Source of the DNA: Methylobacterium sp. AMS5
GTDB taxonomy: Bacteria; Pseudomonadota; Alphaproteobacteria; Rhizobiales; Beijerinckiaceae
Length of the DNA: 64,000 nucleotides
Reading direction: 5' to 3'
NCBI RefSeq assembly: GCF_001542815.1
Contig: NZ_CP006992.1
Coordinates: 2,361,501-2,425,500 of the forward strand
Shown: positions 43,771 to 58,238 of the stretch, one piece after another
How positions within the stretch are numbered: the first letter of the stretch is position 1
Layout: the number at the start of each line of letters is the position of its first letter
Translations under genes and position numbers: made by a program
Notes under the pieces: model-generated
Database searches by the model: none
Told to the model about the DNA's origin: nothing
What the model saw: only the letters and a program-made list of their open reading frames with translations

Positions 43771-43786
43771 TTAAACGACGGTTAAC
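43771..43786 (+). promoter_or_regulatory. Perfect CtrA box
   Basis: TTAA (43771-43774), seven bases, TTAA (43782-43785), then C: an exact match to the CtrA full site TTAA-N7-TTAAC. It lies 43 nt before the ATG of the 74-residue gene, placing it to act as a promoter element. Confidence 0.7.
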
Positions 43787-53816: not shown

Positions 53817-55667
53817 TCAGCCCTTGGCCGCGGCGCTCTTGTTGCCGCGTTTGAACATGCCCTTGAGGTTGTCCCACAACTCCACCTTCACGCCGTTGCG
53901 GCGCATGATGACGTATTGCTGGATGACCGAGAGGGTGTTGTTCCAGGCCCAGTAGATCACGAGGCCGGCGGGGAACGAGCCGAGCATGAAGGTGAACACG
54001 ATCGGCATGAAGGCGAAGACCTGCGCCTGGACCGGGTCCGGCGGCGCGGGATTCATCTTCATCTGGATGAACATCGTGATGCCCATGATGATCGGCCACA
54101 CGCCCAGATGGATCGGGATATACTCGGGCGGCGTGAACGGAAGCAGGCCGAACAGGTTGACGATGCTCGTCGGATCGGGCGCGGCGAGGTCCTGAATCCA
54201 TCCGAAGAACGGCGCGTGCCGCATCTCGATGGTGATGAACAGCACCTTGTAGAGCGCGAAGAAGACCGGGATCTGGATCAGCACCGGCCAGCAGCCGGCG
54301 ACCGGATTGATCTTCTCCTTCTTGTACAGCTCCATCATCGCCTGCTGCTGCTTCGTCCGGTCGTCCTTGTAGCGCTCCCGGATGGAGGTCATCTCCGGCT
54401 GCACGGCCTTCATCTTGGCCATGGAGACGTAGGAGCGGTTGGCGATCGGCAGGAAGAACAGCTTCAGGATCAGCGTCACGAGCAGGATCGAGACACCGAA
54501 ATTGCCAATGAGGTGGAAGAAGAAGTCGAGCGCCCGGAACATCGGCTTGGTCAGGAACCAGAACCAGCCCCAGTCGATCATCAGGTCGAATTGCTTGATG
54601 CCGAACTCGCGTTCGTAGGCGTTGATCTGGTTGACCTCCTTGGCGCCCGCGAACAGGCGCTGCGTCGTCACGGACGACGCGTTCGGCGCTACCGTGACGG
54701 CGTCGCCGCGCACGGAGGTCTGGTAGATCTTGGTCGCGCCGTCGGTGCGCTCGGTGAAGGCGCCGGTGAAGGGCTTGTCCTGCTCCGGGATCGCGGCGGC
54801 GGCCCAGTACTTGTCGGTGATGCCGACCCAGCCGCCGGTCACGTTCGTCCAGGCCTTGCCCAGCGTGGCGGCTCCGCCATAGGCCGGCTCCTTGCCGACC
54901 TTGTCGTAGGTGTATTCCTGCAGGCCGTCGTTGCCGAGCACGCCGATCAGGCCTTCGTGCAGGACGTAATAGCCCTGGGTCTGCGGCTTACCCCAGCGCG
55001 AGACGAGGCTGTAGGGATAGAGCGTCACCGGGTTGGCCGAGGTGTTCTCCACCTCGTCGCGCACGGTGAACATGAACTTGTCGTCCACGGCGACGATGCG
55101 CTTGAAGACGAGTCCCTGACCGTTCTCCCAGGTCAGCGTCAGCGGCCGGCCGGGCGCCAGCAGATCGCCGTCCGCCTTCCAGAGGGTGTCGGCGTTGGGA
55201 AGCGGGCCCGCATTGGCGCCGACCCAGCCGAACTCGGCATAGTACGGGTTGGCGCTGCCGGTGGGCGAGAGCAGCACGATGCGCGGGCTCTCGTCGCTGA
55301 CGGTCTCATGGTAGTTCTTCAGGCTCACGTCGTCGATGCGCGCGCCCTTGAGGCCGATCGAGCCGTAGAGGGCCGGCGTGTCGATGCGAACGCGCGCGGA
55401 ACGGGCCAGCGCGTCCTCGCGGGACACGGGCCCCTGCGCCGCGGCACCCGGCAGGGTGCCGGGAGCGGGCGCGTTGGGGCTGCCCTCGCGCGGACTCGGC
55501 GACGGGATGCCGTCGGCCGTCTGCGGTGCGCCCGTCTGAGCGGTCTGGCTCTGCGCCGCCTGTCGCTGCCGCTCGCTGGCCGGCCCGGTGACGAAATAAT
55601 GCCAGCCAAGCAGGACCACCAGCGACAAGGCGATGGCGACGAACATGTTCGTCTTGTCGTTACCCAT
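53817..55667 (-). CDS. yidC: Membrane protein insertase YidC
   Basis: The 616-residue protein has an N-terminal anchor helix (about 8-24). A large periplasmic beta-supersandwich domain follows, then the C-terminal Oxa1-like insertase core of five helices. The last contains [30 protein letters not shown] and a cytoplasmic loop, then [20 protein letters not shown]. It inserts proteins into the inner membrane. The start at 55667 overlaps rnpA by 8 nt. It belongs to the rpmH-rnpA-yidC-engB unit. Confidence 0.97.
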
Positions 55668-56157
55668 CGGTCGATCCGTCAGGCGCTTTCGATGTGGGGG
55701 GAAGGGGCGGAGGGCCGCCAGTCGACGCACCGCGCCCGGAGCGGGAGCCGCCGCGCCGGGGTGGGGTCGGCCGGGCGGAGTCGCTGGAGCGCGGCGTGGC
55801 CGGGCGCGTCACCGAATGGAGCGCGCGGCGCAGATCCGCGACGAGGCTGTCGAACGCGGCGTCGAGGGCGGGGCGCCGGGCGATCACCACGACATCCGCT
55901 CCGATCGAAGGCGCATCCGCCGCCACGGCGGCAACGGCGCTGCGCAGGCGTCGCCGTATCCGGTTGCGTTCGGTCGCATGCCCTACGCGCTTGGTGATGG
56001 TGAAGCCGAGGAAGAGGCCCTCGGCGGTCGCGCCGTCGCGCGTCTCACTCGGATCGCGCAGGCGCCCTTGGGCGCTCATGCGTTCCGTATGAAAACGCCG
56101 GCCCTGGGCGGCTGCCAGGAAATCCGGGCGCCGCCGGAGACGTCCGATCGTCGGCAC
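55660..56157 (-). CDS. rnpA: Ribonuclease P protein component
   Basis: The 165-residue protein has the RnpA pattern: [29 protein letters not shown] is the conserved RNA-binding segment with the arginine-rich motif. It processes the 5' ends of tRNA precursors with the RNA component. It is longer than typical RnpA (about 120) because of a basic, proline- and serine-rich C-terminal tail after about residue 120. It starts with GTG at 56157 and overlaps the yidC start by 8 nt. Confidence 0.93.
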
Positions 56158-56232
56158 GGGCGCTCCGATCCCGATTCGCGGGCTCGTGTTGCAAAAGGCG
56201 GCGTCGCGCGAAGGGCGTCGCCGCGGGACGTA

Positions 56233-56367
56233 TCAGGCCGAGAGGCGCTTGCGGCCGTGTGCGCGGCGGGCCGCGATGACCTTGCGGCCGCCGGCGGTGG
56301 CCATGCGGGCGCGGAAGCCGTGACGGCGCTTCCGAACGAGCTTGCTGGGCTGATAGGTTCTCTTCAT
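56233..56367 (-). CDS. rpmH: 50S ribosomal protein L34
   Basis: The 44-residue basic protein [18 protein letters not shown] followed by [26 protein letters not shown] is a full L34. It belongs to the large ribosomal subunit. It begins the rpmH-rnpA-yidC-engB unit and its promoter is at 56501-56529 on the same strand. Confidence 0.98.
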
Positions 56368-56500
56368 GGTCGGTCTCCGGCGGCCGAGGTATCGGCCCGG
56401 CGGCGCTGCCGATGAGCGCGCGGACCGTGCGTGAGCCTCGAAATGGGATCTGCAAACGCGAAGGGCGCCCGGAACGGGGCGCCGCTTCGCAATGGCGCGG

Positions 56501-56529
56501 CTTATGGCGGAGGGGGCGCCGCAAGTCAA
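56501..56529 (-). promoter_or_regulatory. rpmH promoter
   Basis: On the minus strand, TTGACT (56529-56524) is followed after 17 nt by CATAAG (56506-56501). This matches the -35/-10 pattern of a housekeeping promoter, about 135 nt before the rpmH start codon. Confidence 0.6.
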
Positions 56530-56695
56530 TGACGGCGCCCGGCCCGTGACGGCACCGCCTGCCGCGGCGCCGCCTTGAGCGATTCCGAGACCGGTTCGGC
56601 CGGCAGCGTTGGCTGTCGGACCGTAATGTTGCGGTCGGTCGAGTCCTGATTAGGGTCTTCGCGGGCGTGTGCCGCCGAAATCCACGGCCTGCTCC

Positions 56696-56711
56696 TTAAC
56701 CGAGCGTTAAC
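56696..56711 (+). promoter_or_regulatory. Perfect CtrA box upstream of a candidate small RNA
   Basis: TTAA (56696-56699), seven bases, TTAA (56707-56710), then C: an exact CtrA full site. It lies about 25 nt before the 5' hairpin of the candidate RNA and about 330 nt before rcdA. Confidence 0.75.
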
Positions 56712-56734
56712 CTTTCCGTTCTATCAAGAAGCAC

Positions 56735-56836
56735 ATCCAGATTGTCTGGATCCTGATTGGGATCTCTTTCCAGTCTGATTGATGCCTCCCTGTAAGACTC
56801 ACGAAAGCCGCTCCTCCTGGGGCGGCTTCTTTTTTT
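56735..56836 (+). ncRNA. Candidate CtrA-controlled small RNA with anti-Shine-Dalgarno loop
   Basis: No gene lies on the plus strand before the terminator at 56805-56836, yet that terminator is strong. Upstream are a perfect hairpin ATCCAGA-TTG-TCTGGAT (56735-56751) and a CtrA box. A single-stranded region (about 56752-56804) contains TGCCTCCCTG. The terminator loop shows CTCCTCCTGG, which can pair with AGGAGG ribosome sites, as in other alphaproteobacterial small RNAs that block translation. Total length would be roughly 100 nt. The 5' end is inferred, not seen. Confidence 0.55.
56805..56836 (+). terminator. Rho-independent terminator of the candidate small RNA
   Basis: AAGCCGC (56805-56811) pairs with GCGGCTT (56822-56828). 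Inner T-G and CC/GG pairs close a TCCT loop, followed by CTTTTTTT. It is a strong terminator on the plus strand without an upstream gene on that strand. Confidence 0.85.
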
Positions 56837-57042
56837 GCCGCACGCCAAGTTTGCCGCACGCCAAGTTTGCCTTTCGCCAAGCGCCGCGCTCCCCGCCTGG
56901 TGCCGGCCGCTGCCATTAACGTTAAAAAGACCTGAACCTCCTCCCCGCTCGCGTTCGGCGCTACACTTGCCCCACTGGCCGCATTCGCACCGGCATCGTC
57001 CCGATCCGGGGCAGATGGTTCGCTGGCGGTACAGGAGGCAGG

Positions 57043-57576
57043 ATGACCGAGTTCGACGTCACGTTCCGGGACGATCGCGAGTGGGTGAGCTTCGGCGAGT
57101 CCTACGTGACCTCGGAAGGTTTCAAGACCCTGTTCCGCGAGGGCATGCTGCTGGTCGAGGAGACGGCGGCTTATCTCGACGGGGAAGGGCGCTCCGAATC
57201 GCGGCTGATCTCCCGCGATGCCACGCTCGCCTATGCCAGCGAGAGCATGCGCCTCACGACCCGGCTGATGCAGATCGCCTCGTGGCTGCTGGTGCAGCGC
57301 GCGGTCTCCGAGGGTGAGATCTCGCTGGTTCAGGCGCAGGAGGAGAAGACCCGCGTCAAGCTCGCCGAGCCGGAGCGCGCGTTGCCCGAGGCCGGCGATG
57401 CCTTCACTGTCCTGCCGCTGCGGCTGCAGGATCTCGTGCGCCGTTCGCGCCGGCTTCACACGCGCATCCTCCACCTCGATGCGCTCATCAGCGAGGATCG
57501 CCCCGCTCCGGTGCCGCGGGAAAGCCCGGTGACTGCCCAGTTTGGCCGTCTGCGTGCCGCGTTCGGCGGAGAGTGA
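57043..57576 (+). CDS. rcdA: DUF1465 protein, RcdA-type CtrA-degradation adaptor
   Basis: The 177-residue helical protein matches DUF1465: GESYVTSEGFKTLFREGMLLVEETAAYLDGEGR and YASESMRLTTRLMQIASWLLVQRAVSEGEI. In Caulobacter RcdA delivers CtrA and other substrates to ClpXP at the pole. The length is close to Caulobacter RcdA (about 170). The start at 57043 is preceded by GAGGCAGG. The upstream gap contains CtrA-like half sites and the candidate small RNA. Function by homology only. Confidence 0.82.
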   Translation: MTEFDVTFRDDREWVSFGESYVTSEGFKTLFREGMLLVEETAAYLDGEGRSESRLISRDATLAYASESMRLTTRLMQIASWLLVQRAVSEGEISLVQAQEEKTRVKLAEPERALPEAGDAFTVLPLRLQDLVRRSRRLHTRILHLDALISEDRPAPVPRESPVTAQFGRLRAAFGGE

Positions 57577-57779
57577 TTTCGGCCGTCCTTGCCCCGATCC
57601 GGCCCGCATTCCGGGCTGGATCCGGAGCGCGCGACACGCTCGGACTGCCCGCGGTCGGTCTCGCGGGCTGACGCCCCGGCCCGGATTATCCCGGCTGAAT
57701 CGCCTTGCCGTTCGGCTGGCCACGGCAGCGCAGGCCGACGGCCGCGCCCCGCGGCCCGATTGTGCCGACGCGGTTCAGA

Positions 57780-57857
57780 ATGCCTCGCAAAACTCCCGAT
57801 CTCTGACCGTTCTCCGTCTGGCGAGGGCGGCGCAGCGGGCGTTTTATGAGAGGCACT
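57780..57857 (+). repeat. Palindromic repeat family B, copy 3
   Basis: Arms CTCGCAAAACTCCCG (57784-57798) and CGGGCGTTTTATGAG (57836-57850); two substitutions in the right arm. Interior GATCTCTGACCGTTCTCCG matches copy 1 in the same orientation. Confidence 0.8.
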
Positions 57858-57919
57858 CAGCCTGCCGCCTGATCCGCAGACGTCGCACGCGCAGGGCTTG
57901 CCGTCAGATCGTCCGCGCA

Positions 57920-57948
57920 AACGAAAACGGCGCCGCGAGCGGCGCCGT
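57920..57948 (-). terminator. Terminator of rpmE
   Basis: ACGGCGCCGC (57927-57936) and GCGGCGCCGT (57939-57948) pair with a short loop. On the minus strand the following bases are TTTTCGTTTG, a T-rich tail. It lies 36 nt after the rpmE stop codon. Confidence 0.85.
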
Positions 57949-57983
57949 CTGGTCGATTCGGGCTTGCGCCCAAATCCGAACAA

Positions 57984-58238
57984 TCACTTCTTGCCGAAGC
58001 CGAGGCCGCCGAAGCGCGAGTTGAAGCGCGAGACGCGCCCGCCGCGATCGAGCATCTTCTGCTCGCCGCCCGTCCAGGCCGGGTGGGTGGACGGGTCGAT
58101 GTCCAAGTTGAGGACGTCGCCTTCCTTGCCGTAGGTCGAGCGGGTCTTGTAGTCGGAGCCATCGGTCATCACGACCTTGATGAAGTGGTAGTCGGGGTGC
58201 TCGGTCCCCTTGGCCTTGGCGGCCTCGTTCTTTGCCAT
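57984..58238 (-). CDS. rpmE: 50S ribosomal protein L31
   Basis: The 84-residue protein matches L31: [56 protein letters not shown]. The four-cysteine zinc motif found in some L31 proteins is absent, so this is the cysteine-free (zinc-independent, C-minus) type. The start at 58238 (MAKNEAAK) is preferred over an in-frame ATG 39 nt upstream. Confidence 0.93.

Follow-up and report, generated by a model that had tools for sequence, protein, structure and literature searches.

A small RNA of the RF02356 (BjrC1505) family with a conserved CtrA-type promoter, usually adjoining rcdA, in Methylobacterium sp. AMS5 and its relatives

BjrC1505 (RF02356) is a small RNA of Bradyrhizobium and Rhodopseudomonas, in both of which it was reportedly seen by Northern blot by Madhugiri et al. 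in 2012. Two other alphaproteobacterial small RNAs, suhB/mmgR (RF00519) and SorY (RF02651), are regulators of mRNAs. Within the open-licence literature searched, available mostly as part-texts, neither a function for RF02356 nor a paper linking it with CtrA or rcdA was found, and the accessible part of Reinkensmeier 2011 (PMC3927594) does not mention rcdA. The RNA gene of Methylobacterium sp. AMS5 described here has its sequence, hairpins, core and terminator in common with BjrC1505 and is preceded by a CtrA-type promoter. With suhB/mmgR and SorY it shares a CCUCCCU segment, a GACU-like stretch and a terminator, but it scores below threshold with both models (24.6 bits against a gathering threshold of 41, and 24 bits against 111, respectively). 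Three further small RNAs are related to it in theme, as far as the accessible parts of the respective papers describe them. CcnA, a Caulobacter non-coding RNA compared here by description only, is likewise a small RNA with a predicted CtrA site in the cell-cycle circuit, but it lies at the replication origin and acts through a CCCC loop on the ctrA and gcrA leaders (PMC8959179). GspR of Sinorhizobium, also compared by description only, represses ctrA, thus acting on the CtrA circuit, and likewise has three stem-loops, whereas it is likely restricted to Sinorhizobium and has no known promoter signature 5′ of its start (PMC5928217). EcpR1 of S. meliloti is likewise a cell-cycle RNA whose conservation spans several families of the order, but it is encoded downstream of divK-pleD and belongs to the stringent-response regulon (PMC4414408).

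In the window, that is, the whole 64-kb stretch of AMS5 DNA that was analysed, the RF02356 covariance model matched positions 56689-56835 over its full length (model positions 1-140) with 65.3 bits (gathering threshold 50; E 5.1e-11). The interval is an above-threshold member of RF02356, and the RNA family itself is not new. The predicted gene occupies 56733-56836 of the plus strand, with its 5′ end placed from the promoter and its 3′ end from the terminator, and the preliminary description, which had proposed a candidate RNA of about 100 nt at this place, is borne out by an RNA of about 103 nt, for which, as a member of an already named family, the word candidate is an understatement. The perfect CtrA box, the 7-bp hairpin and the terminator reported there on the plus strand were all recovered, with coordinates right to a base. 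Hairpin 1 (56735-56751, plus strand), found by an inverted repeat search that lists it on the minus strand, pairs ATCCAGA with TCTGGAT over 7 bp around a TTG loop, and hairpin 2 (56755-56775, plus), which is absent from the preliminary description and is supported by covariation, pairs GATTGG with CCAGTC including one G-U. A single-stranded segment follows (56776-56802, plus), having near-invariant columns and, in most species, the core UUGAYGCCUCCCUGU, which is complementary to Shine-Dalgarno words; the gene closes with an intrinsic terminator (56805-56836, plus) consisting of a 10-bp stem with a loop of 4 (56805-56828), followed by CTTTTTTT (U7). Anti-Shine-Dalgarno words had been noticed both in the single-stranded segment and in the terminator loop. 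The former stands, GCCTCCC (56784-56790) being conserved and single-stranded in the consensus; the latter does not, as the terminator loop has only 4 nt, and the CTCC sits in the stem and varies between species.

The neighbourhood also agrees with the first account, in that the RNA adjoins rcdA and has no plus-strand gene before it: rpmH (56233-56367, PF00468) lies on the minus strand, and rcdA (57043-57576), encoding a DUF1465 protein (PF07323, 184.5 bits) 93% identical to the RcdA of M. thiocyanatum, lies on the plus strand. Between the terminator and rcdA, a separate rcdA promoter-like element (TTAACGTTAA ... GGCGCTACACTTGC; 56916-56970, plus) was recognized by eye, and similar elements occur in other species.

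The RNA structure is carried by covariation. Of 200 shuffles of the 107-nt strand, only one folds at least as well as the native sequence (z -3.5). In a model-fitted alignment of 78 distinct rows, 94.7% of the cells are paired and all 21 pairs show changes on both sides, with a covariation score of 0.325; shuffling lowers the score to 0.138 and sliding to 0.069 or less. An ordinary MAFFT alignment of 19 sequences, not fitted to the structure, scores 0.152 against 0.097, and both sides have changed in 7 of its pairs. Both-sided changes were found in 7/7 modelled pairs of hairpin 1, which is identical in the three nearest species of the RcdA-based scan (L090-L092), in 6/6 pairs of hairpin 2, where 98.9% of the cells are paired, and in 8/8 modelled pairs of the terminator, while the core columns GA..C.TCCCTGT are invariant among 39 aligned sequences. 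All three hairpins form in the six other copies that were folded, some of which add a short hairpin within the core; the AMS5 copy folded as a single sequence nests hairpins 1 and 2 differently, as does that of L090, and the three-hairpin form proposed for the AMS5 RNA rests on covariation, against its own single-sequence minimum. A short open reading frame within the RNA was considered and rejected, because only 8 of 39 aligned copies have ATG at its start codon (56782-56784), whereas 29 have ACG there. Compared with the three nearest species, identity is 74-80% in the RNA, 26-36% in the spacer after it, 70-92% in the upstream region of rcdA and 73-80% in the box, and the RNA is therefore an island of conservation relative to the following spacer, not relative to the rcdA promoter.

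Upstream of the RNA, the exact CtrA box TTAACCGAGCGTTAA (TTAA-N7-TTAA; 56696-56710, plus strand) has its 5′ end at about -37 from the predicted RNA start, and a putative -10-like element, TATCAA (56722-56727, plus), coincides with the A/T/A columns that 61 aligned promoters conserve at +27, +28 and +30 of the box; taken together, the -10-like columns span 26 to 31 nt from the start of the box. A strict sigma-70 scan of 55500-58000 returned no site. RF02356 model positions 1 to about 44 align to this box and promoter, the consensus UUUACGGCCUAUUAA being placed on TTAACCGAGCGTTAA, and of the pairs that the model has in the promoter part, several are non-standard in the AMS5 copy. The family model thus appears to take in its own promoter as RNA, with boundaries that would be wrong by about 44 nt. 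A transcript-only model, R1, was built from 19 sequences including the AMS5 copy, with the CtrA box left out, and scores the AMS5 copy, one of its own 19, at 72.9 bits.

The box is conserved together with the RNA. The 64-kb window has two exact TTAA-N7-TTAA boxes, where 100 dinucleotide shuffles average 0.01. Among the 65 RNA-bearing loci of a set selected by RcdA (see below), the best box, searched for with starts 20-60 nt 5′ of the RNA, is exact in 43, has one mismatch in 18, two in 3 and three in 1, and when exact and one-mismatch boxes are counted together, 58 of 61 begin at -35 to -40 relative to the start of the RNA model, the true start being predicted. Bradyrhizobium-type members have a one-mismatch box, TTTA-N7-TTAA. 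By comparison, none of 5,863 equally wide control windows from other parts of these loci contains an exact box and 0.22% contain a one-mismatch box; the corresponding rates in shuffled upstream sequence are 0.19% and 2.5%. When the spacer was varied from 3 to 12 in 64 loci (L169, with less than 60 nt upstream, was excluded), exact matches numbered 3, 0, 0, 0, 43, 1, 0, 1, 2 and 0, and with at most one mismatch allowed, spacer 7 gave 61 and the other spacers 6 to 18. Only spacer 7, the CtrA spacing, is enriched, and the signal is therefore specific to it. In Caulobacter, according to the accessible part of the source, the full CtrA motif is found most often at -35 of activated starts, the genes with such a motif track the CtrA level in predivisional cells, and the starts with a CtrA motif include those of six non-coding RNAs (PMC4287350). 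The CtrA link of the RNA is, in our judgement, well supported by conservation.

The covariance search in relatives that the preliminary description had suggested finds RF02356 across the family and the order, and in part of the class. With strict filters on sampled genomes, matches at E 1e-3 were obtained in 55 of 99 family genomes (45 over the cut-off), 245 of 297 order genomes (212 over it) and 40 of 385 class genomes (17 over it; 4 of the 40 belong to the own order), and there was none in 14 control genomes. R1 matched 92 of the 385 class genomes, many of them weakly, so that true and chance matches are mixed in this number. Six of eight RcdA records from a plasmid collection were also examined with R1, which finds the RNA in four (M. 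bullatum, Shinella and two Sinorhizobium) and does not find it in R. leguminosarum pRlX5 or in the Sphingomonas record.

Synteny raises the question of whether the RNA belongs to rcdA, as a 5′ leader with an attenuator, where read-through past the terminator would set RcdA levels. In 61 loci chosen by RNA score, AMS5 included, rcdA lies downstream in the same direction in 60, and the remaining one (L008) has an rcdA fragment 1.4 kb further on, at the locus edge. In a second set, the best 80 of 585 relatives from named genomes ranked by RcdA alignment only and blind to the RNA, which leans to close relatives, 65 of the 80 loci have an R1 match upstream of rcdA (E 1e-3 or better), a count that is partly so by construction, since 18 of the 19 R1 sequences come from these 80 loci, whereas the box is outside the model. 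The preliminary description had taken loss of the hairpin and terminator beside kept flanking genes as evidence against the RNA; both elements are conserved in these 65 of 80 rcdA loci. The constant orientation, a gap of 151-323 nt between the RNA end and the rcdA match (26 intervals) and the agrobacterial rcdA, for which the accessible part of one paper describes several start sites and an upstream CtrA site (PMC10469942), are what a leader would predict. However, rcdA keeps its promoter-like element 3′ of the terminator also where the RNA is missing, and therefore the two look like separate units. No R1 match at E 1e-3 was obtained in 15 of the 80 loci, two of which (L131 and L146) give weak matches of 20.2 and 20.9 bits with filters off; by eye, the element stands right behind the preceding gene in three RNA-less loci (L118, L140 and L155, the clearest cases), more loosely in L126 and L160. 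Seven Methylobacterium loci (L096, L097, L102-L106) have no R1 match upstream of rcdA, and the element is kept, by eye, in the six printed members of this group. Moreover, in 26 loci from 26 genomes outside the order, several of one genus, rcdA was found within 1.5 kb downstream in 14 and not found in 12, although one of the 12 (L078) covers only 165 nt downstream and a diverged rcdA could escape detection. We thus consider the leader reading quite improbable; rcdA has a promoter-like element of its own, and the RNA beside it seems to be an independent unit, one that genomes can lose.

The species with no match for the RNA at rcdA include M. hispanicum, M. trifolii, M. brachiatum and M. fujisawaense, and M. 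goesingense (L099) has a decayed-looking copy of 25.5 bits. Among the 12 loci where rcdA was not found, the neighbours were read in 9, and a Cys/Met-metabolism enzyme lies 3′ of the RNA in 4 of these by eye, confirmed as PF01053 in L070; a DUF1192 gene (PF06698) precedes the RNA in L066 and L083, and a thioesterase gene (PF13279) follows it in L089. The gene 5′ of the RNA in S. meliloti also encodes DUF1192.

The same loci bear on a further reading, in which the CtrA box would serve only rcdA or rpmH and the RNA would be transcribed constitutively from the same -10 region. It draws on the intergenic position of the box between the divergent rpmH and rcdA, and on a CtrA signal that was assigned to rcdA in S. 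meliloti, in the accessible part of the source (PMC4433202). Against it, the distance from box to RNA is fixed (the 58 of 61 boxes at 35-40 nt noted above), while the gap between RNA and rcdA differs among loci by over 100 nt; and outside the order a box with at most one mismatch stands at -35 to -45 in 20 of the 26 loci (9 exact), namely in 11 of the 14 with rcdA and in 9 of the 12 where rcdA was not found. We regard this reading as very improbable. The CtrA tie is the conserved feature, rcdA not being a necessary partner, because the promoter is kept also away from rcdA.

The Rhizobiaceae records extend the comparison to a species with published CtrA binding. S. meliloti Ak57, Sinorhizobium K101 and Shinella have a diverged RNA upstream of rcdA, scoring 36.9 to 38.9 bits with R1, which matches all three, whereas the RF02356 model has no match in these two Sinorhizobium and one Shinella records (E 0.01). 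An exact CtrA box lies 5′ of the RNA in all three (by eye), and both Sinorhizobium records have it at -35 relative to the R1 start; in Shinella the R1 match begins late, 61 nt past the box, and hairpin 1 lies about 40 nt past the box by eye. A second exact box, TTAACCCTTTCTTAA, is located between the RNA terminator and rcdA (L174 2339-2353, and at the same place in L175 and L176; by eye). According to the accessible part of one paper, ChIP-seq places S. meliloti CtrA at the promoter region of rcdA, and CtrA depletion leaves rcdA unchanged by array as well as by qPCR and lacZ follow-up (PMC4433202). An overlooked CtrA-driven RNA upstream of rcdA is one possible reason for binding without an effect on rcdA; because there are two boxes, the ChIP peak is not assignable to one of them.

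Based on these findings, we propose that the interval is an independent gene for a trans-acting small RNA of about 103 nt in the RF02356 family, usually adjoining rcdA and keeping its CtrA promoter also elsewhere. The promoter would be of the CtrA-activated kind, with a full TTAA-N7-TTAA box in the -35 position and a weak -10, and transcription would start just 5′ of hairpin 1 and end at the RNA's own terminator. Most likely, CtrA~P turns on the RNA late in the cell cycle, at the time of CtrA activity, and the exposed GCCUCCCUG segment represses several mRNAs by covering their Shine-Dalgarno sites. Among the traits of Hfq-dependent trans-acting small RNAs, the U-rich terminator and the exposed core are visible in the sequence. 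We hold this reading, a CtrA-promoter RF02356 RNA that represses in trans through its exposed segment, to be probable: the RNA structure, family, promoter architecture and synteny are observed in the DNA, and from these we infer transcription in AMS5, activation by CtrA, mechanism and targets. Alternatively, the RNA could bind a protein or, as a sponge, another RNA instead of covering ribosome sites, and the conservation flanking the anti-Shine-Dalgarno word on both sides (UUUGACGCCUCCCUGUU), which goes beyond a generic need for such a word, would fit this; yet small RNAs with a similar 3′ half, suhB/mmgR and SorY (below threshold here), act on mRNAs, and we find a sponge or protein-binding role rather improbable.

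For a repressor acting in trans, the identity of the mRNAs is the next matter. The preliminary description had placed the RNA in a feedback arm on CtrA through targeting of rcdA or ctrA, and the wiring, namely the conserved CtrA promoter and the rcdA neighbourhood, is consistent with this, as is the tuning of ctrA by small RNAs such as GspR (PMC5928217) and CcnA (PMC8959179) in the accessible parts of these papers. In the same loci, with the Shine-Dalgarno word not fixed, rcdA leaders pair with the core better than rpmE leaders in 38 of 46 and better than ABC leaders in 36 of 42 cases. Against a 38-nt stretch of the AMS5 RNA, the ctrA leaders of 20 genomes reach -13.4 to -33.8 kcal/mol, so that some relatives come to about -34, and that of the own genome reaches -15.2. 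However, once the Shine-Dalgarno word is fixed, neither mRNA is singled out as a specific target and their leaders pair not significantly better than shuffled ones: rcdA leaders, which could be taken from 62 of the 65 RNA-bearing loci, have a median percentile of 0.37 (p 0.07; not significant), and none of the 20 genomes stands out for ctrA (p 0.96), with median percentiles of 0.60 for the AMS5 core and 0.70 for the usual core; the rcdA leader also ranks only ninth among the 50 predicted genes of the window. A post-transcriptional feedback loop of the RNA on the CtrA system, via rcdA, ctrA or another cell-cycle mRNA, therefore stays a hypothesis that fits the wiring and lacks support from pairing, and we think it unlikely.

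No conserved target emerged from the pairing, own-genome, order-wide and leader tests. The reverse complement of the core, with at most 2 mismatches in 15, occurs in the own genome in the gene itself and at 3 other sites, which establishes no target; one of the 3, in L172, resembles by eye a ribosome site, that of a response regulator gene standing alone. AGGGAGGCAT occurs at 2 other sites of the own genome, neither a convincing ribosome site. Across the order, CAGGGAGGC-N2-9-ATG, a ribosome-site-like word with nine bases matching the RNA, is found in 53 of 61 genomes, at 349 sites against 32 for the reversed control, an excess set aside as target evidence because any Shine-Dalgarno word would give it. 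Where sites were assigned to a locus (up to 30, plus 39 stretches from 6 genomes, a minority of the 349), sucD was the only recurrent clear ortholog, in two genomes.

If the feedback held and the box mainly served the RNA, CtrA binding upstream of S. meliloti rcdA without a change in rcdA transcription would be accounted for. The broadest form of this idea, that RF02356 is an order-wide CtrA-driven cell-cycle RNA feeding back post-transcriptionally on CtrA turnover, and that the CtrA site assigned to rcdA in the Rhizobiales mainly serves the RNA, is tentative and fairly unlikely. For a named, functionally unexplained RNA family, the present analysis points to a likely regulator, corrects the 5′ end and gives a rule for the genomic setting, with rcdA alongside and a CtrA box in front, which makes the family testable in model strains. 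The CtrA promoter, the corrected start, the wider range and the association with rcdA are new here, none having been found stated in the open-licence literature searched, as far as its texts were accessible. These findings suggest that many species of the order have a layer of CtrA output that studies centred on proteins would mostly miss.

Several minor observations were also made. The second exact CtrA box of the window, TTAAACGACGGTTAA (43771-43785, plus strand), lies by eye near the 5′ side of a minus-strand acetylglutamate kinase-like gene. Directly 3′ of the terminator, a 16-bp tandem duplication (GCCGCACGCCAAGTTT twice; 56837-56868) is present in AMS5 and absent from the three nearest relatives. 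In a sucD-like gene of L245 and L280, the ribosome site contains CAGGGAGGC, complementary to the RNA core. Finally, in two genomes of one genus outside the order, two RNA copies lie close together in L084 (1301-1382 and 1501-1599, minus strand) and two nearby copies are found in L085 (44-128 and 210-327, plus strand).
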